Shown: positions 45,410-64,000, numbered from the stretch's first letter. The stretch: 64,000 nt of DNA from Paraconexibacter antarcticus (GCF_024220175.1 NZ_CP098502.1:3724514-3788513); one strand, 5' to 3'. Numbers and translations are program-made. Notes: a model not told the origin generated them from the sequence alone.

Positions 45410-47734
45410 ATGCACGCTGCGATGATCGTGCCGCCTGAGGAGCAGCTCCGCGACGCACGCGCGCGTCTGGTCGTCCTGGATCGCGAGCGCGCCGAGCTGC
45501 GCGCCGGCATCACGGAGCTCGAGCGCCACCTTGGTGGACCTCAGACCGGCACTGCGGAGGGCCGTGTGGCGTTGTTCGCGAGCCTGTTCCGCGGCCGGGC
45601 GGACGTGTTCGCGACGCGCTGGCAGAGCCGGACCAAGCCTGGCAGCTCGGGGTGGGCACCCAAATGCTCGAACGAGTGGAAGCCCGGGGTCTGCGAGAAG
45701 CCGAGGGTGAAATGCGCCGTCTGCGCGCACCGCCGATTCGTGGCCTACTCCGAGGCCGAGGTACGCCGGCACCTGGAAGGGCATCAGACGATCGGCATCT
45801 ATCCGCTGCTCGCCGACGAGACCTGCTGGCTGCTGGCCATCGACCTCGACGGGCCAAGCTGGAAGGAGGACGCAGGCGCGCTGCGCGAGGTCGCCGCCGA
45901 CGCCGAGGTCCCCGTACTGGTGGAGCGCTCGCGATCGGGGCAAGGCGCTCACGTGTGGCTGCTGTTCGCCAAGCCCGTCGCCGCGCGCGTCGCGCGGACG
46001 ATCGGGTCCTGGCTGCTGACGCAGGCGATGAGCCGTCGCTCAATCTCGATGGCCTCCTATGACCGGCTGTTCCCCAACCAGGACACGATGCCGGCCGGCG
46101 GCTTTGGGAACCTGATCGCACTACCGCTGCAACGCGACCGTCGCCCGGACGGATGCACGCTGTTCCTCGACGCGAACCTGACGCCCTATGCCGACCAGTG
46201 GAGCGCTCTCGCTGAGGCGAAACGACTGGACGCCGACCGAGCTGGACTCCTGGCCGCCGAAGCCGAAAAGGCCGGCGGCACACTCGCCTTGCCGCATTGG
46301 GCGGACACGAAGACGCGATCACCAGCCCGCCCTCTCCCGTCCGGCACAGCCGCCCCGGAGACGCTCACCGCTCGGCTGCGCGGACGGCTGGAGATCGCTA
46401 CCACCGACCTGCCGGCCGGCGTGCGGGACCGACTGCGGCGAACCGCCGCGTTCGCCAACCCCGTTTTCTACGAACGTGAAGCAGCGCGCCTGTCCACCCA
46501 CAACACCCCACGCGTGATCGCCTGCCACGAGGACACCGGTGAGCATCTGCTGCTGCCGCGGGGCTGCCTGGACGCGGTCCGCGATGAGCTTGAGACGGTC
46601 GGCACCACGCTGGCCATCGACGACGCCCGCACCGACGGCAACGCGATCGGCGCCACGTTCACCGGGACCCTGTCCACCGCTCAACAGGCAGGCGTCGACG
46701 CGCTCGCCAAGCACGACGCGGGCGTGCTGGTCGCGCCGCCGGGGTCGGGCAAGACCGTGATGGCCACCGCCCTGATCGGCACCCGCGGCCGCTCCACGCT
46801 CGTGCTCGTGCACCGCCGGCCGCTGCTGGAGCAGTGGATCCAGCGCCTGACGCAGTTCCTCGACCTCGAGCCAGGTCAGATCGGCTCGCCCGCCACCACA
46901 CCGGGGACCAGCGGAATCGACGTCGCGATGATCCAGACGCTCACCCGGCGAGACACCACCACACTCCTGGACCGCTACGGCCACGTGGTCATCGACGAAT
47001 GCCACCACGTCCCCGCCGTCTCCGTCGAGCGACTCCTGCGCGACCTCCCCGCCCGCCACATCACCGGCCTGACCGCGACGCCTCGTCGCCGCGACGGCCA
47101 CCAGCCGATCATCGCCATGCAGTGCGGCCCGGTCCGCCACACCATCACCGTCACGCACGCCACCGAGACCGCCGTACGCCGCGTCCTGATCGAGCGCCGC
47201 ACCGCCTTCGACGCCAGCGCGCTGCCGACCGATCCGGGCATCCAAGAGATCCTCGGCGCGGTCGCCACCGACCCACACCGAACCAAGCAGATCGCCGACG
47301 ACGTCCTCGCCGAACTGGCCGCCGGCCGCTACCCCCTCGTCCTCACCGAACGCCGCGAGCACCTCGACGCCCTCGCCGCGCTGCTCAAACCCACGATGCC
47401 AGGACTCATCGTGCTCAGCGGCGGCATGGGCGCACCCGCCCAGCGCCGCGCAGACGCAGCCCTCGCCGACACCGACGGGCCGCGCGTCATCCTCGCAACT
47501 GGCCGCTACATCGGCGAAGGCTTCGACGACCCACGCCTGGACACGCTCGTACTCGCGATGCCGATCGCCTGGAAGGGCACCATGACCCAATACGCCGGCC
47601 GGCTGCACCGCCACCACGACGACAAGCACGAGATCCGGATCCTCGACTACGTCGACCACGAGATCCCCGTCCTGCGCCGCATGTACGCCAAACGCCAGCG
47701 CGCCTACACCGCACTCGGGTACCAGCCCGGCTGA
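45410..47734 (+). CDS. Primase-helicase fusion (AEP domain + SF2 helicase)
   Basis: A 774-residue protein. Residues 8-42 form a coiled coil. Residues 50 to about 260 are an archaeo-eukaryotic primase domain of the TOTE conflict-system type, with a Cys cluster (KCAVCAHRRF), the catalytic DLD in LAIDLDGPSW (145-147), RSGQGAHVWLLF, and GNLIALPLQ. A SF2 helicase follows with APPGSGKT (about 443-450), DECHHV (about 529), LTATPRR and YAGRLHRHH. It ends after the helicase, with no nuclease domain. TOTE-type fusions are proposed in biological conflict; the missing nuclease may be supplied in trans or lost. Confidence 0.82.
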   Translation: MHAAMIVPPEEQLRDARARLVVLDRERAELRAGITELERHLGGPQTGTAEGRVALFASLFRGRADVFATRWQSRTKPGSSGWAPKCSNEWKPGVCEKPRVKCAVCAHRRFVAYSEAEVRRHLEGHQTIGIYPLLADETCWLLAIDLDGPSWKEDAGALREVAADAEVPVLVERSRSGQGAHVWLLFAKPVAARVARTIGSWLLTQAMSRRSISMASYDRLFPNQDTMPAGGFGNLIALPLQRDRRPDGCTLFLDANLTPYADQWSALAEAKRLDADRAGLLAAEAEKAGGTLALPHWADTKTRSPARPLPSGTAAPETLTARLRGRLEIATTDLPAGVRDRLRRTAAFANPVFYEREAARLSTHNTPRVIACHEDTGEHLLLPRGCLDAVRDELETVGTTLAIDDARTDGNAIGATFTGTLSTAQQAGVDALAKHDAGVLVAPPGSGKTVMATALIGTRGRSTLVLVHRRPLLEQWIQRLTQFLDLEPGQIGSPATTPGTSGIDVAMIQTLTRRDTTTLLDRYGHVVIDECHHVPAVSVERLLRDLPARHITGLTATPRRRDGHQPIIAMQCGPVRHTITVTHATETAVRRVLIERRTAFDASALPTDPGIQEILGAVATDPHRTKQIADDVLAELAAGRYPLVLTERREHLDALAALLKPTMPGLIVLSGGMGAPAQRRADAALADTDGPRVILATGRYIGEGFDDPRLDTLVLAMPIAWKGTMTQYAGRLHRHHDDKHEIRILDYVDHEIPVLRRMYAKRQRAYTALGYQPG

Positions 47735-47882
47735 TCCCGGGCCCGCGGCAGGCCTGGCACAAGCTCGCGCCCACAGCACGCAGCACGGCTTGAACTTCAG
47801 GCCGCCCCTCTCTGCCAAGGTGACGTGAGACAGGTTCTACCGTTGTATTTACTGAGCCTGAGGGCGAGAACGGACGTGCGTT

Positions 47883-48395
47883 GTGTCGCAGTTCTCTGCA
47901 GGGATGAAGGACGAGCTGGAGGGTTCCGCCGGCGGTGTGCCGGAGGGAGCCGAAGGCGAGCGTAGGCACATCGCCGGCGGCGCGTCGTCGCTGGTGGGGG
48001 TCCCGGATCCCGAGCTCGTGCCGCGGGCGACGCGCCGCAGGTTCACCGCGGCGTACAAGCTGAAGATCGTGCTCGCCGCCGAGGCGTGCACCAAGCCCGG
48101 CGAGATCGGCGAGGTGCTGCGCCGCGAGGGCTTGTACTCCTCGCTGCTGACGGAGTGGCGGCGGGCCCGCGACAGCGGCGCGCTCGGGGCGCTGGAGCCT
48201 CGCCAGCGTGGCCCCAAGCCGCCGAGCGCCGAGCGGATGGAGAACGCGGCGCTGCGTCGCCAGCTGGAGCGCTCGCAGGCCGATCTGGTGACGGCGCGTC
48301 GGGTGATCGAGGTGCAGGGAAACGTCTCCGCGCTCTTGGAAGAACTGCTGGCCAAGAGCGCGCCGGAGACCGACGAGCAGCCGCCGCGATCATGA
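47883..48395 (+). CDS. IS3-like transposase OrfA
   Basis: A 170-residue protein with GTG 47883 or the ATG seven codons later (MKDELEGS). After an N-terminal 45 residues, the HTH region is RRRFTAAYKLKIVLAAEACTKPGEIGEVLRREGLYSSLLTEWRRAR, then a coiled coil (RMENAALRRQLERSQADLVTARRVIE). It binds the element ends and acts with OrfB. Its stop overlaps the OrfB start (ATGA). Confidence 0.82.
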   Translation: MSQFSAGMKDELEGSAGGVPEGAEGERRHIAGGASSLVGVPDPELVPRATRRRFTAAYKLKIVLAAEACTKPGEIGEVLRREGLYSSLLTEWRRARDSGALGALEPRQRGPKPPSAERMENAALRRQLERSQADLVTARRVIEVQGNVSALLEELLAKSAPETDEQPPRS

Positions 48396-49402
48396 TCGAT
48401 CAGGCCGTCATTGAGATCGAGCCGCTGGTCGGCATCCTGCCCGCGTGCCGCGCCCTCGGCGCGTCCAGGGCGTCGTTGTATCGCCGACGCAGCCCGCCGC
48501 CCGCGCGCGCGTCAGTGCCGCGCAGGCGGCCCGGCCGGGCGCTGTCGGATGAGGAGCGTGCCGCGGTGCTCGAGCAGTTGCACAGCCCGCGCTTTCAGGA
48601 CGCCTCCCCTGCCGAGGTCTGGGCGACGCTGCTGGATGAGGGGATCTACCTTGCGTCGCAGCGCACGATGTACCGGATCCTCGCCGCCGAGTACGGCGGC
48701 GTCACCGAGCGCCGCGCGCAGCTGACCCATCCGCCCTACGCCGCACCGGAACTGCTCGCCGAGCGGCCGAACGAGATTTGGTCCTGGGACATCTCGAAGT
48801 TGAAGGGTCCGGCGAAGTGGACCTACTACTACCTCTACGTCATTCTCGACGTCTACAGCCGCTACGCCGTCGGCTGGACGGTGCAGCACCGCGAGAACGC
48901 GCACCTGGCCAAGGCGCTGATCGGCCAGGCGTGCGAGCAACAGAACATCGTCCGTGGCCAGTTGACGGTGCACGCCGACCGCGGCCCGGCGATGACGTCC
49001 AAGCCCGTCGCGTTCCTCCTCGCCGACCTCGGCGTCCTGCGCTCGCATAACCGGCCGTACACGTCGACGGACAACCCGTACTCCGAGTCACAGTTCAAGA
49101 CGATGAAGTACCGGCCCGGGTTCCCCGCACGGTTCGACCACATCGACCACGCCCGCGCCTTCTGCCGCGACTTCTTCGGCTGGTACCACCACGCTCACCG
49201 CCACGCCGGCATCGGCCTGATGACCCCACACGACGTCCACCACGGCCACGCTCCGGCCGTCCACGCCGCCCGCACCACCGTCCTCGACGCGGCCTACGCC
49301 GCCACGCCCGAACGCTTCGTCCGGCACCCGCCCCGACCGCCCGCGCTGCCGACCGCCGCCTACATCAACAAGCCCAAGCCCGAGGAGCCCGCCGCTCACT
49401 AA
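48392..49402 (+). CDS. IS3-like transposase OrfB
   Basis: A 336-residue DDE protein starting MIDQAVIEIEPLVGI; longer frames upstream are OrfA read out of frame. Catalytic acids are in WSWDISKLKGP (D), HADRGPAMTSK (D) and NPYSESQFKTMKYRP (E). The tail FFGWYHHAHRHAGIG is typical of the IS3/ISAs1-like OrfB group. All motifs are intact. Confidence 0.87.
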   Translation: MIDQAVIEIEPLVGILPACRALGASRASLYRRRSPPPARASVPRRRPGRALSDEERAAVLEQLHSPRFQDASPAEVWATLLDEGIYLASQRTMYRILAAEYGGVTERRAQLTHPPYAAPELLAERPNEIWSWDISKLKGPAKWTYYYLYVILDVYSRYAVGWTVQHRENAHLAKALIGQACEQQNIVRGQLTVHADRGPAMTSKPVAFLLADLGVLRSHNRPYTSTDNPYSESQFKTMKYRPGFPARFDHIDHARAFCRDFFGWYHHAHRHAGIGLMTPHDVHHGHAPAVHAARTTVLDAAYAATPERFVRHPPRPPALPTAAYINKPKPEEPAAH

Positions 49403-49423
49403 ATTCGCCCCGACACTGTCTCA

Positions 49424-49602
49424 TCCGGCTTGACAGGTTCCGCGCCGCCCACGAACTGGGGGCGTTTCGAGCCGTCTTCGCGGTAGCCGGAACGCTCCCG
49501 GCTGCAGCCGACGACATGCGCGCCCGACCACAGGCGCCGGTCAGCACAGCCCCGACGCGACAACCGCGTCACCAACCTTCGTGGCCGCGCGAAGCGGTCC
49601 GT
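49424..49602. other. Spacer between the IS and island repeat copy 2
   Basis: No gene seen. With the repeat that follows (49603-49786) this forms a stretch of over 300 bases without coding sequence. Confidence 0.4.
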
Positions 49603-54451: not shown

Positions 54452-56491
54452 CTACTCCGCTGACCCAATCAGCACCGCGTTCGCCGCCGTCGCGGCGAAG
54501 GTGGCGCTCTGTAGCGCCCTCGCGTTCAGCAGAGCGCGGTGGTCGGCGGCGACCATCGGAAGATCGGCGGCGGCAAGCTTGCGGGCCATGTTCGCGACCG
54601 TGTCCTGTCGAGCTGGCGTCAGGATGCCGGCGGCTCGGTTAGCGCAGACAAAGACGACGTCGAGGTGGCCGTTGTGCTCCTTGCCGATGATCGGCATGGC
54701 GCTCTCCATCTCGGCGAACACGGGCCACCACCGCTCGACAACGAACTCGGCGTCGATGAGTGCCGCCTCCAGATGATGCCAGGCGCCCTTGTTGGCGTGG
54801 TGGAATGTGAAGGTCATGCGGCCGTCATCCTTGAGCACTCTGGCCACTTCGTTGAACACGTCGGCGAGGAGCTGGGCGTAGTCGTCGCCGTCGCGGCCGC
54901 GGTGGCGATTCTGGACGGCCTCCTGGGTGTCGTCGACGAGTTCGGTCTGGAAGGAAGGATGGTCGGGGAGCATCTGGCGCAGCCAGATGTAGAAGTAGTC
55001 CGACAGTTCGGCGTACATGACGTTGTCGGCGTACGGCGGATCGGTGACGCACAGGTCGACGCTGCCATCAGGGATCTGCGGCAGCGACGCGGAGGACTGG
55101 TTGAGCAGCAGCACGTCGGCGGTGTCGTCGAGCAGATCCTGGAACGTCTCGGCGGGGCGGCCGGCCAGGCGTTCTCCGTCGACGGCGGCTCGGACGCGCT
55201 GCCCGTCGACGATCGTCGTCTCGTGCGTGGCGGCCATCCACCGGCGGGCCGCTTTCAGCCGGGTGCCGTACAGCGAGGCGAACCCGCCGGACGATCCGCC
55301 GGACGCGCTGCCGACACCCCACAGGTGCGCTTCGAGCGGAGCCTTGGCCGGGATGAACGCGTGATGGCTGAACACCTGGCGGATCGCGCCGGTCCCCAGC
55401 CCCTTGGAGCTGGCGAACATCGAATGGAACTCCAGCACCGACGACAGGTGCAGGCTGAGCGTCTCGCGGCTGGCCTGGTCAGTGACGGCGCCGACGGCGC
55501 GCACGAGCGCATCGAGGCCGAGCAGCTGCCGGGCGTTGAACATCTCGTGCCAGTGCTCGTAGCCGTAGCGGAGCATCTGGTTGGTGTTGCGCCCGACGGG
55601 GATCGTCCCGCGCGGCACCTTCAGCCGGTTCAGGGTCTTGGCCGCCAGGGCCTGGTGTGCGGCGTCGAGGTCGAGGTCGGCCTGGTCGGGCGCTTTGAAG
55701 CCGCGTCCGCAGTCCTCGCAGTGGGTGACGATGCAGGTCATCCGGTGCGCCGGCGGGCTGGAGGCCCGGGAGACGACGTCGAGGATCTGGCCGTGATGCC
55801 CGCAGCCGCAGCGATACTCCTTGGCCGACGCCGGGCGCTTGGCGGGCACGAAGCGGTGATGGCAGCCGGGGCACCGCACCCGCGCTTTGACGCTGCGCAC
55901 CCGCCACGGGTGATCGCAGGCCGGGCACTGCACGAGGCCTCCGCCGGGGTTGGTGAAGTCGGCCATCACCACGCGGCTGGTGATCAAGTCGACCGGGTCC
56001 TCGCACGCCTGGCAGCTGATCTGCTTGACCCAGCTGGTGTACTGCGCCTGCGCGGGCTGGTCGCACGTCGGGCAGGCCGTCACGTACATGGCCCGCAGCG
56101 ACTGCTCGGCGGCGGCGCGGACCTGGGCGAAGGCGGCGTCGAGCGCGGCGTCGTCGAGGTCGCGGACCATCTGGGTGACCAGGAACGAGGCGACGGGGTT
56201 CAGCTCGGAGCCGACGACCTTGCAGCGCAGGCGCAGCGCTTCGCCGATCGTCGTGCCGCCGCCGTGGAAGCAGTCGAGCACGACCTTGTCAGAGAAGTCG
56301 TGCGACCGGGCCATCGCGGCCATGCGGTCCTCGTCGCCGTCCAGCAACTGGTCGAGAAGGATCGCCCGGAACACCGACCCGGTTCGTCGCGCCCACCACT
56401 TATGGACGTAGTAGGCGGGACGGTGAGCGGCCTTACGATGAGCTTCGTGCCTGGAAAGCGCAGAAATCTCGGGGTAAGGCGGAAGTCCCAC
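54452..56491 (-). CDS. Amino-group DNA methyltransferase with Zn-binding domain
   Basis: A 679-residue methylase from GTG 56491 (MGLPPYPEISALSRHEAHRK). Motif I-like LDCFHGGGTT is at 72-81 (SAM binding). Four or more CxxC pairs lie between about 115 and 260 (CPTCDQ, CQACED, CPACDH, CPGCHH, CGCGHH, CEDCGR), a large zinc-ribbon insert. The catalytic motif IV DPPY is at about 484-487 in CVTDPPYADNVMYAELSDYF. DPPY marks N6-adenine or N4-cytosine methylation, not C5. In DISARM terms it corresponds to an amino-methylase (DrmMI-like role), protecting host DNA. It is the last gene of the drm locus. Confidence 0.83.
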   Translation of the reverse strand: MGLPPYPEISALSRHEAHRKAAHRPAYYVHKWWARRTGSVFRAILLDQLLDGDEDRMAAMARSHDFSDKVVLDCFHGGGTTIGEALRLRCKVVGSELNPVASFLVTQMVRDLDDAALDAAFAQVRAAAEQSLRAMYVTACPTCDQPAQAQYTSWVKQISCQACEDPVDLITSRVVMADFTNPGGGLVQCPACDHPWRVRSVKARVRCPGCHHRFVPAKRPASAKEYRCGCGHHGQILDVVSRASSPPAHRMTCIVTHCEDCGRGFKAPDQADLDLDAAHQALAAKTLNRLKVPRGTIPVGRNTNQMLRYGYEHWHEMFNARQLLGLDALVRAVGAVTDQASRETLSLHLSSVLEFHSMFASSKGLGTGAIRQVFSHHAFIPAKAPLEAHLWGVGSASGGSSGGFASLYGTRLKAARRWMAATHETTIVDGQRVRAAVDGERLAGRPAETFQDLLDDTADVLLLNQSSASLPQIPDGSVDLCVTDPPYADNVMYAELSDYFYIWLRQMLPDHPSFQTELVDDTQEAVQNRHRGRDGDDYAQLLADVFNEVARVLKDDGRMTFTFHHANKGAWHHLEAALIDAEFVVERWWPVFAEMESAMPIIGKEHNGHLDVVFVCANRAAGILTPARQDTVANMARKLAAADLPMVAADHRALLNARALQSATFAATAANAVLIGSAE

Positions 56492-56529
56492 TGCCGCAAC
56501 TGTAGGCCTTCTCCGGGCCCCGTGTCGAC

Positions 56530-57348
56530 CTAGACCTCCACCAGCAGCTTCGCTTCGACCAGCAGGTCGACGAGCCACCAGACCCGTTCGACGTCGTGAT
56601 CGCGCAACGGCAGGCCGACTTCGACATGGCGTTCCAGCCCAGCGACGGTCAGGTTGCCCGATCCGAGGTACCCGGTGCGCCCGCAGACCGCCTTGGCGTG
56701 ACAGATCGAGTCCGGGTGCGGCGGCGCGAACTCGTAGACGGTGACCCGCCGGAACCCGTCCGCGCGCAGCCGGGCGCCGAACGCCGTCATCGCGCTGTGA
56801 TGGGTGCTGTCGCGCGGGCGCGCGCCGGCCAGCGTGACCGGCAGGTGCTGGGCCAGCGCGCGGTCCATCGCCGGGCGCAGCGCCTGGCAGCCCTCCCTCG
56901 ACCAGTACGGCGACATCAGAAGCAGCGGCTGCTCCTCGGCGGAGCGCAGCGAGTCGGCGACCAGCGTCGACAGGCTGCGGGCCAGCGGCCGCAGCCTCGG
57001 CGGCAGCACGACCTGCGGCGGGACGGTGCAAACCAGGGCGCTGACCGGGTCGGGGATCCGGGCCTGCTCGGCGGCGCGGACGAACGGCAGCAGCTGGAAG
57101 ACCTGGTCCATGTCGTCCAGGCGGTACTCGTCGACGGTGCCGTCGTCATGCACGACGCCCGCGGTCGTCATCTCCCCCACCAGCAGCGCGACGTTCGCCG
57201 GGGTCATGTGCGTCGGCGCGGCCGCCGTGAACGTGCCGGCGCTGTCCAGGCGCTTGAGCCACTCGCGCGCCCGGGCTTCGCCACCGAACAGCTCGGATAC
57301 CAGGTACGCGGCGTCGACGAGCTGCTGGGCGGATTGCAGCTGGCGCAC
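56530..57348 (-). CDS. drmC: DISARM phospholipase-D-like protein DrmC
   Basis: A 272-residue PLD-family protein from GTG 57348, three bases after the drmB stop. The HxK motif is H217-A-K219 in CHAKAVCGRTGYLGSGNLT, with Ser/Asn at about 230-232. DrmC proteins have one such motif and would work as dimers. The N-terminal half (about 1-140) is helical and family-specific. DrmC is part of the DISARM core, though in some systems it is dispensable. Context (drmA-drmB-drmC in order) is the best evidence. Confidence 0.88.
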   Translation of the reverse strand: MRQLQSAQQLVDAAYLVSELFGGEARAREWLKRLDSAGTFTAAAPTHMTPANVALLVGEMTTAGVVHDDGTVDEYRLDDMDQVFQLLPFVRAAEQARIPDPVSALVCTVPPQVVLPPRLRPLARSLSTLVADSLRSAEEQPLLLMSPYWSREGCQALRPAMDRALAQHLPVTLAGARPRDSTHHSAMTAFGARLRADGFRRVTVYEFAPPHPDSICHAKAVCGRTGYLGSGNLTVAGLERHVEVGLPLRDHDVERVWWLVDLLVEAKLLVEV

Positions 57349-57351
57349 CGG

Positions 57352-59127
57352 TCAGGCCCAGTAGCCGTGGGCGACCGCCGTCGCCCGGGTCGGCTCGGCG
57401 GTCCCGTACAACAGCGAGCGGTCCAGGTCCTGGTTGCGGTGCTCGCAGCCGAACGCCAGGTGCAGGCAGTTGGCGCAGGCCCCGTCGTGCTCGGAGCAGC
57501 GCGGATCCCAGGTGCATGTCTCGGTGCCGCGGACGGCCGCGCGCAGCCAGGTGGACAGGTGATGCTCGACCAGGGAGACCAGCGCGCCGAGCGTGAACTC
57601 CTGGTGGACGTTGGCGTACAGGCCGATCGTCAGCGCCTGCGGGATCAGGTACTCGGCCATTGTGTCCTCGCCGAACCCCGACAGCTCGCCGAGGTTGCGG
57701 ATCAGGCTGTGCGACACCGTGTGGCAGAGGTTGCTGGTGGCCTGGGCGACCGCTCCCTCGGCGGCGTTCTCCCGCAGGATCAGCAGCCGGGCCTCCCGCG
57801 GGTCGGTCGGGGCGGGCTCGGTCAGCAGGTCGTTCTCGGCCAGCCACGCGCAGACGCGCACCGGGTCCAGTTCCAGGAACACCGCCTCGGTGTTCGACGT
57901 GGACACGTACAGCGGGGTCTTGTCGTTCTTCAGCTGTGGGAACGGGTTCAGGCGCGCTTCGCTGTCCTTGTTGCTCAGGCGCGTCCAGCCGTAGGCGACC
58001 AGGGCGATCGGGAAGTTCTCCACGACCACCGCCCGGGCGAACCCGGCGTCCAGCAGCGCCTGCTGCTCGCCCTGCAACCGGCGGACGGTGGCTTGCTGGC
58101 CCAGGCGCCGGGCGATCTCCTCGAAGTGCTCCAGGCGGCGCACCCGCAGGTCGCCGGCCCCGGAGAAGATCATCGCCCGTTCCTGCAGGCGCTGGGAGAT
58201 GCCCAGCTCGCCGGCGGCGTGCGCGCCGACCTGGTCCTCGATCTCCGACCACTTGTCGTCGCCGCCGCCGACCAGGTCCTTCATCGCCTGCTCGCGCAGC
58301 GCCTCGGGGAGGCTGGCCATCCCCTGGCGCATCAGCTCGATCTCCTCGGGCGTGTACTTCGACCCCTTGCGGACCGAGGCCGCGGCGTCGAGTTCCTCTT
58401 CGAGGTCGCGGACATCGTCCAGGTAGGTGGCCAGCACGACGGCCGGGCCGGCGGCGTCGCGCTTGAGGCGCTGCAGCGGGCCGCTCTTGAGCGTCACCAG
58501 CGGGAAGCTCTGGGTGAAGAACCGGCCGGGGGCGCGGACCGGCAGCGAGCGCATGTAGCGGTCGCCGGGCAGGTTGCAGCCGGTGCAGCCGCGGTACCCC
58601 AGGCCCTTGACGGGCACGCCGCAGTCCAGGCAGCGCAGCTGGGCGTCGGCGAAGTTTCCGGGGTCGTCGAGCACGAGGCTCTTGAAGCCGTGGATGTTGC
58701 AGCGCTGGATCAGCAGCGGCTTGAGCTCGCCGCACTGATGGACTTGCAGGAACGGCAGCTGCTCCAGGTGCCCGGGGCAGCCGTTGCGCCCGCACCGCGG
58801 CGACTTCGGGATGTCGGTGATGTCGTTGAAGATCTTGATGACGCCGCAGCGCTTGCAGCGCATGTTCAGCGGCCACAGGTCGTAGACGACCTCGTCGACC
58901 GGCTCGACCAGCGAGTAGCGGTCGGGGTTGACCAGCGGCGGGCGGAAGCCCGTCTGGTGCGTCCAGCGATGCAGCTCACGGTCCAGGGCGTCGAAGACGA
59001 GCTGCGAGTTGATCTCGTAGGACGGTTCGGTGGCCACGCGCTGGACCTGCGCGATCAGGCCGTTCTCGTGACGGAACACCTGCCCGGGCAGGTGGTTGAA
59101 CATGACCTGGGTCTTTGATCGCTGCAT
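57352..59127 (-). CDS. drmB: DISARM protein DrmB (DUF1998)
   Basis: A 591-residue protein starting MQRSKTQVMFNHLPGQ. It is rich in zinc-ribbon Cys: MRCKRCGVIKIF, RCGRNGCPGH, VHQCGELKP, RCLDCGVPV and GCTGCNLPG. The C-terminus has the DUF1998 signature CTWDPRCSEHDGACANC then HLAFGCEHRNQDLDRSLL. DrmB forms a complex with DrmA that recognises and unwinds incoming DNA. It starts five bases after the drmA stop. Length and order are those of known DISARM loci. Confidence 0.92.
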   Translation of the reverse strand: MQRSKTQVMFNHLPGQVFRHENGLIAQVQRVATEPSYEINSQLVFDALDRELHRWTHQTGFRPPLVNPDRYSLVEPVDEVVYDLWPLNMRCKRCGVIKIFNDITDIPKSPRCGRNGCPGHLEQLPFLQVHQCGELKPLLIQRCNIHGFKSLVLDDPGNFADAQLRCLDCGVPVKGLGYRGCTGCNLPGDRYMRSLPVRAPGRFFTQSFPLVTLKSGPLQRLKRDAAGPAVVLATYLDDVRDLEEELDAAASVRKGSKYTPEEIELMRQGMASLPEALREQAMKDLVGGGDDKWSEIEDQVGAHAAGELGISQRLQERAMIFSGAGDLRVRRLEHFEEIARRLGQQATVRRLQGEQQALLDAGFARAVVVENFPIALVAYGWTRLSNKDSEARLNPFPQLKNDKTPLYVSTSNTEAVFLELDPVRVCAWLAENDLLTEPAPTDPREARLLILRENAAEGAVAQATSNLCHTVSHSLIRNLGELSGFGEDTMAEYLIPQALTIGLYANVHQEFTLGALVSLVEHHLSTWLRAAVRGTETCTWDPRCSEHDGACANCLHLAFGCEHRNQDLDRSLLYGTAEPTRATAVAHGYWA

Positions 59128-59132
59128 GCGGG

Positions 59133-62100
59133 CTACCTCAGGATCGCTTCGGCGGCGTTGTTGGTGAAGGTCCGCCCGGCGAAGCCGAGCGAGGCGTCGA
59201 CGTCGCGGAAGCTGGTCAGCGGCGGCGGGTTGAGCATCTTGATCAGCGCCCGGTCGCGCGGGGACTTGAGGTCCTGGATCAGCGCGGTGATCTCGGTGCG
59301 CACGTCCTGGCGCATCGTCTCGACCATGCCGGGGTCGTAGATCTCCGCGGTGCTGCCGTCGCGGGCCAGCAGGTGCCGACTGAGGCCCAGCGCGTCGAAG
59401 ACCCGCTCGACGATCGCCTCCTCCGACGCCTCCGTGTTCCACCACTCCACGAACCCCTTGCCGTAGTCCAGGGCCAGCGGGGCGGGCGCGCCGCGCTCGC
59501 GGTCGGGGCGGCCGTAGCCCTGCAGGATGATCGCGGTGATCAGCCCCGGCGCCGTCCGGCCGATCGCGAACTTCGCGAAGCGGTTGACCGGCACCGGCGC
59601 GACCAGCTCTTGCAGGAAGCGGTGGTGGGGCAGGAAGTAGTGGAACATCGAGCGGTCGCGCAGCTTGATGCGGTCGTAGCCGGAGACGACCAGGCCGACG
59701 TGCAGGCGCCCCGACCGCGACGTCGCCTGGATGTAGGCGGCGATGTTCGACGGCATCCAGTTCATGATCAGCAGGTTCAGGCGGTCCAGGTCCACGCCGT
59801 GCGAGACCACCGACGTGCCGACGTTCGCGCGCAGCCGCTGGTCTCGCGGGTCGGTCAGCTTCTGCTCCTCGATCAGCCGCAGCGCCTCGGCGATCTCGTT
59901 GAGGCTGGAGTCCCCCGACAGGAAGCGGACCAGCAGCCCGTCGCCGCCGAAGTCCTTGGCGTACGCGTCCAGCTTGTTGGTGATCGCGTCGCCGTCGCGC
60001 TTGCTGTTGACGTAGCCCAGCGACAGCTCGTAGCTGAACAGCTCGGCCTGCAGCTGCTCGGGCGTGGTGATCGACTGCAGGCCCAGGCGGGCCAGCGCGC
60101 CGTCGGGGTCGTCGGCGAGCCGCTCGACCTCGCGGTGCAGCAGCGCCTGCACCCGGGAGCCGAACTCGGTGACCTCGCGGAGCATCGGCATCGCGCCGAC
60201 GTAGATCCGCTGCGTGTCGACCGACAGGCGCGTGTAGAAGGACTCCTCCAGCGACCAGCCCGGGGCCGGGAACACGCAGGCGCGGCGGGCGTACAGGTGA
60301 CGGACCTGGGCCTCGTAGCGCTCGACGGTCGCGGTGGCGGCCAGCAGCTTGGTCGGCTTCTTGGTGCCGACCTGGCGCTGCAGGTGCTCGAACAGGGTCT
60401 CGTAGTGCGCGTTGAAGGTGCCCAGCTCCTCCTGCAGCAGGTGCATCTCGTCCTGGACCTGCAGGGCCGGCACCGGGTCGTAGATCTGCACGGAGGTGTG
60501 GTCGCGCTTGGTGCGCTTGCACTTACCGCCCGCCAGGCACTTGTCGCGCGTCTGGCTGGGACGGCCGTCCTTCCAGACGGGCTGGTAGTGGGTGAAGTAC
60601 CCGTGGTCGGGGCAGCAGTACGCCGGGCCGGCGGTGAAGTGCGACACCTCGGGGACGCGGCCGACGGCGGCGAGCTTGTCGACGGTCGCGACGGTCACCG
60701 CGGGCAGGTACCGGAAGACCTCCTCGTCGGTGACGCAGACCGGCATGTCGCCGCAGCTGCTGCACGTGTGCAGCAGGCGCACCCCGGGCACGTCGGCGCG
60801 GAGCGTCAGCTCGCCGCCCGGGCAGTCGGGGTTCAGGCACTCGGTGATCGTCCGCTCGCTGACGGCCAGGTCGGGGTCGCGGGACAGCTCCCGGGCCCAC
60901 CAGTCGATGCTGTCGCGCTCCCGGGTGATGTCGTTGGACAGCCGGTTCGGCGTGTTCGAGCTGCCGACGAAGAAGCCCAGGCGGAACGGGTCGCCGGCGA
61001 AGTCGGTGTCGCCGTCGGCTTCCAGCTTGCTGCGCAGGTCCTCGGCGGCGTAGACGATCCGGCCGACGCGGACTAGCTGCTGGACGGACAGCATGCGCAG
61101 CGGGAAGCGCAGCAGCGCGGTGATGCCGAGCTTCTTGCCGCGCAGGCGGTCGTAGAACATCGCGATCGCGATCAGGCCCAGGTACGCCTCGGTCTTGCCG
61201 CCGCCGGTCGGGAAGTACAGGACGTCGGCGGTGTCCAGCTCCGACAGGTAGGCCGGGTCGTTGACCTCGCGGGCGCGCAGCGCCGACAGGTGGATGACCT
61301 GGAAGACCAGCTGGAACAGGCGCCAGGTGCGGATGTTGCGTCCGCGGGCCTGGCCGACGCGGGCGAAGACCTTGTTGGCCGCGGTGAACGCGATCCGCAG
61401 GTGCGGGTCCTGCTGCAGGGCTCGCAGCCCGAGGTCGAAGCGGTCAGCCTCGGCCTGGAAGACGGCCCGGGCGTCCTGGCAGGCGGCCAGGCGGTCGGGG
61501 TCGTTCTGCCACTGGGGGTTGGCCAACTCGACGTCCCAGCGGCGCAGGAAGTCCTGCATCCCGGTTTGGACCTTCACCAGCTCGCCCATCATCTTGCCGG
61601 GGTCGGCCAGGTCGGTAAAGGCCAGCTCCAGGTCGGGGTTGGTGACCAGCTTGCGCTGGGCGAACAGCGGCCAGGTCGTGGTGCGGACCTCGTCTGGGGT
61701 CTGGTCGGGCGGGCACTGCTCCCCGGCCTCGGTGAACCCGTCGGCGGCGGCGTTGCGCCCGTGCGCCCAGACCAGGCGCAGGTGGTCGTAGCGGAAGTCC
61801 TCGGGGGCGCGCTCGAACTCGATCGCCGTCAGCTGCCCGGCGCGCGACGCGGACCGCAGCTGGCAGTTGAACAGGTGCATGTCGCGCTGCAGTTCCTTGG
61901 CGTCGCCGTCCTTGCCCTTGCGCGGCGCGACCGAGTCGTTGGACAGCGTCAGGCTGACGTTCATCTCGCCCTGGCGCGTCATACGGGTCTGCAGCGTCAG
62001 CGACACCTGATGGGCGCGCAGCGCGCGCTTGCTCCGAGCGGCGCCCTCGCCGGCCTTCAGCGCCTGCCTCCACAACCCCTCGTCGCCGTCGAGCGCGGTG

Positions 62101-62900
62101 ACCGGCACCGTCTGGTTGCCCTCGAAGGCGTGCACGGTCCGGTCGTCGGTCAGCACCGAGGTCAGGCGCGCGTCGACGGCGGCCTGCGCGACCGTCGTCA
62201 GGTCGATCGTGTCGTGGACCTTGGTGGAGTCCAGCGGCACCAGGGTCGCCGGGATCGCGATGTCGATCCGCTCGTACCGCGGGAACAGGCTCATCCCCTG
62301 CACCCGTCCGCGCCGGGCCGCAGGGGCCGGCGGAGGCGCTGCGGCCGGGACGGCAGCGGCCGCGGCCGTGCCGTCGTCGCCGTCGCCGGTCGTTGCGTCG
62401 TCGCCGTCCGCGGCGACCGGTGTCGTGGCGGGGGCGGCCGTGGCCGCGCCGTTGGTCGCGTCCTGCTCGGCGGCGGCCGACGCGGCGCCCGCCGCTTCGT
62501 CGTCGGCGTCGTGCGCGACCTCGGTGAGCCAGAACGCGCGCTGCTCCTCGATGGTCGGGTAGCGCTGGACGTAGACGCTGAAGCCGCCGCTGACCTCGAC
62601 CGCGGGCTGCCCGTCGGCCGGCGGCGTGATGACGAAGTCCAGGCCCATCGTCGGCGGGCGCCCGCCGAAGTCGCCGTCCTCGGGCACGTTCGGCGCCGGG
62701 TCAGCGGCCGCGGACGCCGGGTCCGGCGGCGGGTCGATCGGGTCCAACGGCGGCAGGATCCCCAGCTGCAGGGTACGCGACGGACGCACCCGCTCGATGT
62801 ACGGCTGCGCCTCCCCGGCCAACTGGCGGCGGACGTACTCGGACAGGTGCCGGACGATCCGTTCCTGGTCGGCGTTGCGGACGGACTGCGAAGAACTCAT
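59133..62900 (-). CDS. drmA: DISARM helicase DrmA
   Basis: A 1,255-residue SF2 helicase starting MSSSQSVRNADQERIVRHL at 62900; open sequence beyond this is its neighbour read out of frame. After an Ala/Asp/Thr-rich linker (about 130-200), Walker A is FPTGGGKTEAYLGL. Then come the DrmA-type Walker B DEMHLLQEELG, GTSVVSHGVDLD, and motif VI QATSRSGR. Several CxxC pairs precede Walker B. ATGA overlap couples it to the upstream partial gene. In DISARM the DrmA-DrmB complex senses 5' overhang DNA and blocks phage replication. Confidence 0.93.
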   Translation of the reverse strand: MSSSQSVRNADQERIVRHLSEYVRRQLAGEAQPYIERVRPSRTLQLGILPPLDPIDPPPDPASAAADPAPNVPEDGDFGGRPPTMGLDFVITPPADGQPAVEVSGGFSVYVQRYPTIEEQRAFWLTEVAHDADDEAAGAASAAAEQDATNGAATAAPATTPVAADGDDATTGDGDDGTAAAAAVPAAAPPPAPAARRGRVQGMSLFPRYERIDIAIPATLVPLDSTKVHDTIDLTTVAQAAVDARLTSVLTDDRTVHAFEGNQTVPVTALDGDEGLWRQALKAGEGAARSKRALRAHQVSLTLQTRMTRQGEMNVSLTLSNDSVAPRKGKDGDAKELQRDMHLFNCQLRSASRAGQLTAIEFERAPEDFRYDHLRLVWAHGRNAAADGFTEAGEQCPPDQTPDEVRTTTWPLFAQRKLVTNPDLELAFTDLADPGKMMGELVKVQTGMQDFLRRWDVELANPQWQNDPDRLAACQDARAVFQAEADRFDLGLRALQQDPHLRIAFTAANKVFARVGQARGRNIRTWRLFQLVFQVIHLSALRAREVNDPAYLSELDTADVLYFPTGGGKTEAYLGLIAIAMFYDRLRGKKLGITALLRFPLRMLSVQQLVRVGRIVYAAEDLRSKLEADGDTDFAGDPFRLGFFVGSSNTPNRLSNDITRERDSIDWWARELSRDPDLAVSERTITECLNPDCPGGELTLRADVPGVRLLHTCSSCGDMPVCVTDEEVFRYLPAVTVATVDKLAAVGRVPEVSHFTAGPAYCCPDHGYFTHYQPVWKDGRPSQTRDKCLAGGKCKRTKRDHTSVQIYDPVPALQVQDEMHLLQEELGTFNAHYETLFEHLQRQVGTKKPTKLLAATATVERYEAQVRHLYARRACVFPAPGWSLEESFYTRLSVDTQRIYVGAMPMLREVTEFGSRVQALLHREVERLADDPDGALARLGLQSITTPEQLQAELFSYELSLGYVNSKRDGDAITNKLDAYAKDFGGDGLLVRFLSGDSSLNEIAEALRLIEEQKLTDPRDQRLRANVGTSVVSHGVDLDRLNLLIMNWMPSNIAAYIQATSRSGRLHVGLVVSGYDRIKLRDRSMFHYFLPHHRFLQELVAPVPVNRFAKFAIGRTAPGLITAIILQGYGRPDRERGAPAPLALDYGKGFVEWWNTEASEEAIVERVFDALGLSRHLLARDGSTAEIYDPGMVETMRQDVRTEITALIQDLKSPRDRALIKMLNPPPLTSFRDVDASLGFAGRTFTNNAAEAILR

Positions 62901-64000
62901 GAAGATGCCTTGGTCACGATCGAGTCGTCGAGGGCCAGGAAACGCCCCAGCCGTGACGCGGGGACGTCGCGCACGATCGTCGTGCCGACGACGGTGAACA
63001 CCTGCAGGGCCGCGAAGAAGTCCGTCAGGTCCATGTGCGTCAGCTCCTGCAGCTCGCGCTGCTGCGGGCCGTCGTCGGTGACGAGCGTCTCGGCGACCGC
63101 CTCGTTGAGAACGCGGCCGATCAGCCGGTGCATCCCGCGGACCGTCCGCAGGTACAGGCGGATCTGCGGGAAGTGGGTGACCGCGCTCTCGTTGCCCGAC
63201 AAACGCAGCAGCTCCTTCAGCGGCGCGTCCTGCTGCGGAGCGAGGTTGTCGCGCCGGCGCCACGCGCGAACGGTCCCGGCGTGCACGCCGAGCTTGGCGG
63301 CCAGCGCGGCGTCGGTGCCGCCGGACGCCTCGTACGCGGCCGCAAACGCCTGCAGGTACAGGTCGTAGAAGACGCGGGCCGGGCCGAACGTCTCGTCCCA
63401 CGCCTCCATCAGGTCGTGCACGAGCGTGCCGCGGTCGTTGCCGTCGACCAGCGCGACGTGGTGGCCCTCGGCCAGCTGGGCCACCGTCGTGGCCACCAGC
63501 TTGCCGTCGACCAGGCGGTCGACCTTCGCGTCGGCGGGCAACGCGATCGAGGTGCGCTGCCGCGTGGAGATCAGGACCGCTTCGGCGGCGACCTGCGGCG
63601 AGGCGTCGCCGTCGGCGGGAGCGCCGGGGGCCTGGACGTCGGGCAGGTCGCCGTCTCCGAGCTCGGCGATCTTGGCGAAGAAGTCCATCATCCGCGAGAC
63701 GGAGTCGCTCGGCGGCTCGGCCTCCTTGACGGTCTTGCGGCCGCCGAAGCCGATCGGCTCCAGCGCCTGGACGGTGAAGTCCACCACACCGGTGACCGGG
63801 ACCAGCGTGCCGCCGTAGGCGTCGGTGACGATCGCCGCGTTGCTGGCGCCGCCGACGCACGACGCGGCCGCCCGGCGGGCGTTGATCGGGAACCAGCGGG
63901 CCTGGCTGGGGTACAGCAGCGCCTCGATCGCGCCCTCTTCTGCGGAGCAGTACATGCTGGCCCGGTACGGCGGCGGCGGCTCAGTGACGATCGTCAGGCG
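62897..64000 (-). CDS. First gene of the drm locus, partial, unrecognised (DrmE position)
   Basis: At least 367 residues. The frame is open beyond ATG 63955 up to base 64000 (it reads RLTIVTEPPPPYRAS before that Met), so the gene continues past the window. A small alpha/beta part (KLVATTVAQLAEGHHVALVDGNDRG) is followed by helices with an HTH-like segment (ALAAKLGVHAGTVRAWRRRD) and a mostly helical C-terminus. It is coupled to drmA by ATGA. In class 2 DISARM the gene in this place is drmE, whose activity is unknown. I place it there by position only. Confidence 0.6.
   Translation of the reverse strand, partial: RLTIVTEPPPPYRASMYCSAEEGAIEALLYPSQARWFPINARRAAASCVGGASNAAIVTDAYGGTLVPVTGVVDFTVQALEPIGFGGRKTVKEAEPPSDSVSRMMDFFAKIAELGDGDLPDVQAPGAPADGDASPQVAAEAVLISTRQRTSIALPADAKVDRLVDGKLVATTVAQLAEGHHVALVDGNDRGTLVHDLMEAWDETFGPARVFYDLYLQAFAAAYEASGGTDAALAAKLGVHAGTVRAWRRRDNLAPQQDAPLKELLRLSGNESAVTHFPQIRLYLRTVRGMHRLIGRVLNEAVAETLVTDDGPQQRELQELTHMDLTDFFAALQVFTVVGTTIVRDVPASRLGRFLALDDSIVTKASS

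Follow-up and report, generated by a model that had tools for sequence, protein, structure and literature searches.

Which kind of DISARM is present when a DrmE-like gene and an amino-methylase stand beside the same drmA, drmB, and drmC genes? This question is raised by a locus of Paraconexibacter antarcticus, which we analyzed in a stretch of 64,000 nucleotides (hereafter, the window) corresponding to positions 3724514-3788513 of a single 5.14-Mb contig; sequence past 64 kb was taken from the same contig. Type definitions followed PMC9252829, according to which PADLOC type I consists of DrmA, DrmB, DrmC, DrmD, and DrmMI, and type II of DrmA, DrmB, DrmC, DrmE, and DrmMII, with DrmE being prohibited in type I (PMC9252829). 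The locus fits neither type I, as DrmD and DrmMI are absent, nor type II, as DrmMII is absent. It comprises five minus-strand genes running in one direction, with short gaps or overlaps between them, in the order drmE-like first gene, drmA, drmB, drmC, and amino-methylase gene. All five reading frames are open and intact, and none contains an internal stop.

The first-pass annotation had described drmA, drmB, and drmC as clear and in canonical order. The order was confirmed, and the identities are well above chance. The drmA gene (59133-62900, minus strand) encodes a YprA-type SF2 helicase of 1255 residues (PADLOC DrmA, 3.1e-101), drmB (57352-59127, minus strand) a protein of 591 residues with a DUF1998-type C-terminal zinc region (PADLOC DrmB, 1.1e-37), and drmC (56530-57348, minus strand) a PLD-like nuclease of 272 residues (PADLOC DrmC, 9.9e-7). 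"Clear" was, however, too strong a word with regard to the curated NCBIfam models, none of whose cut-offs was reached: the scores were 331 of 950 bits for DrmA, 70.5 of 240 for DrmB (1.3e-19 with NF038324), 28.4 of 133 for DrmC, and 14.7 of 80 for DrmE. These cut-offs define canonical equivalogs and also shut out a haloarchaeal DrmA (405 of 950 bits). With scores this far below the cut-offs, automatic annotation would name none of the core genes. The helicase motifs GGGKT, DEMH, and SRSGR of DrmA are intact, and its only match in the PDB was the Serratia DrmA (7s9v/7s9w, 3e-44). As is general for DISARM, drmA and drmB are two separate, adjacent genes, and drmC follows drmB directly, though the aspartate of its HKD motif is absent. 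In an alignment of 48 DrmC ORFs, the window copy keeps the histidine and the lysine (HAK) and lacks the conserved aspartate (HAKAVCGRTGYLGSGN), which the other aligned copies retain. The window DrmC may be weak or dispensable.

The gene directly before drmA (62897-65341, minus strand, of which 62897-64000 lies in the window) encodes 814 residues and had been taken as unrecognized. It proved to be recognizable. Pfam DrmE_C matches the protein at 2.3e-5, just below the gathering score, and NF038316 (DrmE_fam) at 0.0066, corresponding to the 14.7 bits given above; no PADLOC DrmE model matches it. A Streptomyces homolog (L011), which can be aligned with it from end to end (residues 41-801), itself matches DrmE_C at 1.2e-14. 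Iterated profiles seeded with the window gene and L011 reached 28 loci, in nearly all of which the gene is located directly before drmA; counted without the window, homologs hold this position in about 26 other loci. Among the loci reached were two annotated by NCBI as "DrmE family" (L012 and L013) and the canonical DrmE of Planomicrobium (L067; NF038323, 975 bits). Iterated searches can drift, but the operon position and the collinearity speak against it. In an independent comparison, the window-side family was aligned HMM to HMM with the canonical L067 DrmE, which had been left out of its profile; the E-value was 3.7e-5 over 462 collinear columns, with 13% identity and an hhalign probability of 71%. 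A single-sequence tblastn search of the first gene against plasmids returned nothing, and the relation emerged only with drmA as a landmark and with profiles. Based on the Pfam match, the HMM-HMM alignment, and the position of the homologs before drmA, we call the first gene, at the level of sequence, a distant DrmE, whose homology to canonical DrmE is remote.

A sequence search of the PDB with the DrmE profile gave chance-level matches only, and structural information was obtained from predicted folds. The full-length model is that of a homolog (L016) folded with 18 relatives, and not of the window's own protein; its mean pLDDT was 76.6. Residues 28-525 of this model resemble SF2 helicases and translocases with two RecA lobes (Z 12-13.7), among them INO80 (Z 13.7) and RIG-I (Z 13.6), with an rmsd of 3.8-3.9 over approximately 320 residues, and FANCM (Z 12.7). 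The Walker A lysine is absent from the first-gene family, which has no GKT/S at the position of motif I and mostly a single aspartate in motif II. The C-terminal 234 residues of the window protein itself (62900-63601, minus strand) were modeled at a pLDDT of 89.6. They are predicted to form a half-HINT or intein-like beta module (Z 8.0 to mini-inteins, rmsd 1.9 over 60 residues) that is interrupted by an inserted XRE/Cro-like helix-turn-helix (HTH) domain (Z of about 6 to XRE proteins over approximately 73 residues). Z values of this size are modest, and the resemblance to HINT may reflect no more than a common arrangement. The models suggest that DrmE joins a DNA-binding domain to an inactive motor and occupies the place in the operon that is filled in class 1 by the active SNF2 protein DrmD. 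As an inactive helicase with an HTH domain, the first-gene family would gain a structural identity that can be tested.

At the other end of the locus, the amino-methyltransferase gene (54452-56491, minus strand) encodes 679 residues. Its ORF had been listed from 57031 on, which places the start too far upstream; translation probably begins at a GTG at 56491 behind GGAGAAGG. In agreement with the first-pass annotation, which had noted DPPY and a large zinc-ribbon insert, the protein contains motif I (DCFHGGGT), motif IV (TDPPY), and six family-invariant cysteines between them. It matches PF06634 (DUF1156) with 24.3 bits at a gathering score of 24 and PF01555 above the cut-off (3.4e-10). With its DUF1156 N-terminus, motif I, zinc ribbon, and DPPY, it belongs to the DUF1156/COG1743-like DNA methyltransferases. 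The antiphage DUF1156 family NF042963 was matched at 9.4e-37, with 126.6 bits versus the 1000 required, and phrog_10183 with 317 bits. Despite the latter strong profile match, no full-length relative was found in phage records. HmaB of the Hma system, the "anti-phage-associated DUF1156" family NF042963, and phrog_10183 belong to the same methylase superfamily, with a DUF1156-like N-terminus, zinc ribbons, and DPPY. Compared to Hma and NF042963, however, the window enzyme is shorter (679 versus approximately 960 residues), and its partners are DISARM genes instead of HmaA and HmaC. No DrmM model was among its best 25 PADLOC matches, whereas the DrmMI and DrmD of a canonical control locus (L036) scored 1505 and 1321 bits, respectively; the library recognizes DrmD, DrmMI, DrmMII, and DrmE in canonical control loci. 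Profile searches revealed no C5-methylase ORF in the extended window locus. Judged by these matches, the methylase is neither DrmMI nor DrmMII. Its predicted target is adenine N6 or cytosine N4, and the sequence alone is compatible with either.

We also inspected the sequence past the end of the window for drmD and a class 1 gene order. Neither drmD nor drmMI is present in the 17 kb past the window end, and the downstream genes do not include drmD either. Besides insertion sequence (IS) copies, the 17 kb upstream of the locus carry genes for DUF3892, Schlafen/AlbA_2, and DUF4238 proteins, an integrase, and a truncated N6/N4 methylase, as well as an 83-aa ORF. We considered the DUF3892 gene and the 83-aa ORF (65592-66142) as parts of the system and rejected them, since the ORFs of the related loci include no relative of either.

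The comparison with known systems places the locus on the class 2 side. Class 2 loci have drmE, to which the window's first gene is remotely related, right before drmA, followed by drmB, drmC, and a methylase adjoining drmC; their DrmMII, however, is a C5-methylase, whereas the window has a DUF1156-like DPPY amino-methylase. With class 1, the locus has the DrmA-DrmB-DrmC core and an amino-methylase in common, but it contains a distant DrmE-family gene and no DrmD, and the methylase is not the PglX-like DrmMI of approximately 1400 residues. ARMADA, Druantia, and Dpd (PMC12458937) likewise possess a central YprA-type helicase; in the window, by contrast, the helicase and the DUF1998 part are encoded by separate genes, as in DISARM, the PLD nuclease is separate, and there is no BrxHII-like helicase. 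Further relatives are DrmE-type loci of haloarchaea and cyanobacteria (for example, Halobacterium salinarum, L013; Allocoleopsis, L014), in which a DrmE-family gene precedes DrmA and DrmB of the same deep DrmA clade and DrmC is present. They differ by a C5-methylase that is not DUF1156-like, encoded divergently after drmC in L013 and before drmE together with drmC in L014. In the literature searched, outside which most subscription papers lay, DrmE loci with DUF1156-type methylases were not described; a published one is possible.

The locus could be a canonical class 2 DISARM that merely diverged in sequence, so that a separate variant would be unwarranted. The gene order E-A-B-C-M is indeed identical in the canonical class 2 locus of Planomicrobium, and PADLOC already calls haloarchaeal relatives DrmE (408 bits for L013), in line with their NCBI annotation. 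A scan of one genome per species, based on a DrmA alignment, yielded 80 loci. In the DrmA tree, the window falls into a clade of 30 rows with a support of 100, whereas the other 58 rows include both class 1 (L036) and canonical class 2 (L067); an IQ-TREE analysis of 33 DrmA rows agreed with the larger tree. Members of this deep clade with readable context nearly all carry a DrmE-family gene. The separate, strongly supported DrmA clade, the different chemical class of the methylase (DPPY, not C5), and the failure of every PADLOC DrmE model to match the first gene argue against simple divergence, which we consider an unlikely explanation. The DrmA tree also supports the variant class that the first-pass annotation had suggested.

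The window-type methylase recurs beside the DrmE-A-B(-C) core in 13 loci, 11 among the loci read and two others (G382 and G116, the contig of the latter stopping before drmE). They originate from actinobacteria of several families, the beta-proteobacterium Albitalea, and Calidithermus of the Deinococcota. The methylase gene does follow drmC in the window, as had been pointed out, and so it does in L009, L016, L019, L107, and L139. This position is nevertheless not special: the gene is found after drmB in L018, where drmC was undetected, before drmE in L010, L020, L045, and L050, and in divergent orientation in L011 and L017, and canonical drmMII also adjoins drmC. Of 396 genomes sampled evenly across the phylum, four were matched by the drmE profile, all four with the methylase adjoining the core. 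Within the deep DrmA clade, two subclades (support of 100 each) are distinguished by the methylase, and each complete locus in them has it. At least two changes are needed on the DrmA tree, so that a single origin of the methylase is not demonstrated. Other deep-clade loci carry C5-methylases (L013 and L014) or, in two further drmE loci, short N6/N4 methylases (L022 and L024). The notion that class 2 loci lack amino-methylases is therefore not a rule, and neither is the pairing of DrmD with an adenine methylase and of DrmE with a C5-methylase, given that one entire branch of the DrmE-type loci has amino-methylases.

The methylase family is wider than these loci. At 1e-20, relatives occur in 37 of the 396 phylum genomes, the top four matches being the four drmE loci, and several relatives lie beside other genes, which ruled out the methylase as a DISARM-specific protein. 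Such relatives outside DISARM would suit the view that the window methylase is an independent neighbor, either an orphan or of type II, that happens to lie beside an ordinary class 2 locus from which drmMII was lost. Against this stand the recurrence of the same family at the same core in several phyla and its presence in every complete locus of the two subclades, in which no C5-methylase was found, and we regard an independent neighbor as very unlikely.

The locus is bracketed by inverted 1.64-kb IS copies with 100% identity (47806-49442 and 69736-71372). The second of these copies, a third one (76827-78469), and a tyrosine integrase (approximately 74344-75666) are located outside the window, and the three IS copies are 99.9-100% identical. 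A search for an att site at a tRNA revealed no tRNA within 20 kb. The seven further genomes sampled from the genus contained no DrmA match at 1e-20, which is consistent with gain by transfer. Although the lost HKD aspartate of DrmC and the three near-identical IS copies around the region might point to a decaying, non-functional DISARM remnant, this is highly improbable in view of five open frames with overlapping or closely spaced ends, intact DrmA helicase and methylase motifs, and a nuclease that is reportedly non-essential in a tested DISARM (Ofir 2018, quoted in PMC9142583), so that loss of the aspartate need not inactivate the system. Approximately 7 kb from the DISARM locus, a gene at 45413-47734 encodes a 773-aa protein that joins an AEP-TOTE primase to a ResIII-type helicase, the combination seen in TOTE conflict systems.

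We conclude, with a probability of roughly 0.8 for the joint reading, that the locus is a chromosomal, horizontally acquired, and intact DISARM of a deep DrmE-type (class-2-like) branch, in which a DUF1156/COG1743-like amino-methyltransferase replaces the C5-methylase DrmMII. Gene content and order, catalytic motifs that are intact in both DrmA and the methylase, the DrmE homology, the recurrence of the methylase with the core, and the separate DrmA clade are the computed features on which we base it. The locus is a real and recurrent new variant of DISARM, best filed on the DrmE side. It widens a known defence family and founds no new one, its branch being deep and rarely recognized. Curated annotation models fail to detect this branch, so that DISARM counts are too low, at least for actinobacteria.

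Sharing the DISARM core, the locus is predicted to work like DISARM. Host DNA would be marked by the methylase on adenine N6 or cytosine N4 within a short motif, which is probably recognized by the cysteine-rich stretch that separates motif I from DPPY. The Serratia DrmAB structure (PMC9142583) provides a model for the loading of DrmA-DrmB on 5'-overhang or unmethylated DNA; by analogy, DrmA and DrmB of the window would together act as a translocating helicase, loaded on incoming DNA that is unmarked or has single-stranded ends. DrmE, with an SF2 fold devoid of the Walker A lysine and a Cro-type HTH domain, might bind DNA and act, without catalysis of its own, as scaffold, loader, or gate in the place that DrmD has in class 1. 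The PLD nuclease DrmC may cut, albeit this copy is the one without the HKD aspartate. As DrmE-type loci contain amino-methylases and other modification genes, the distinction of self from non-self by DrmAB may not depend on a single kind of mark.

A more far-reaching and rather doubtful proposal is that the branch represents a third major DISARM lineage with its own DrmA clade, a DrmE made of a dead SF2 motor and a Cro-type HTH reader, and a freely exchangeable modification module. The modules would then comprise the DUF1156-like amino-methylase, the short N6/N4 methylase, the C5-methylase, and even a GNAT/ABC-ATPase fusion that marks with a non-methyl group, and it would be DrmE, and not DrmAB alone, that couples recognition to the particular mark.

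Several of the related loci and methylase relatives showed additional gene arrangements. In one subclade of the deep branch, a fusion of a GNAT acetyltransferase and an ABC ATPase directly upstream of drmE replaces the methylase (L021, 4945-6858; L023, 5367-7235), and the same ABC part occurs in L033 (2-1171), where drmE was undetected. The fusion gave weak PADLOC matches to the mad3 and mad8 ATPases and could be a non-methyl DNA-modifying gene. In Desulfuromonas (L025, 2-6388) and a Rubrivivax MAG (L030, 2-6364), an ORF of more than 2100 residues with a Walker A motif lies directly before drmE and no methylase was found; the L025 ORF has no Pfam, PHROG, or PADLOC match. In Halorubrum aquaticum (L034, 1853-9412), two drmE-like paralogs precede drmA, one on either side of an uncharacterized 810-aa ORF. 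Two Streptomyces loci (L028 and L029) contain deep-clade DrmA and DrmB without drmE, with MzaB- and MzaC-like genes following them in L029. Finally, in three other genomes of the phylum (L145, L146, and L147), relatives of the methylase adjoin a Walker A protein of approximately 1430-1465 residues, a pair that possibly represents another two-gene system.
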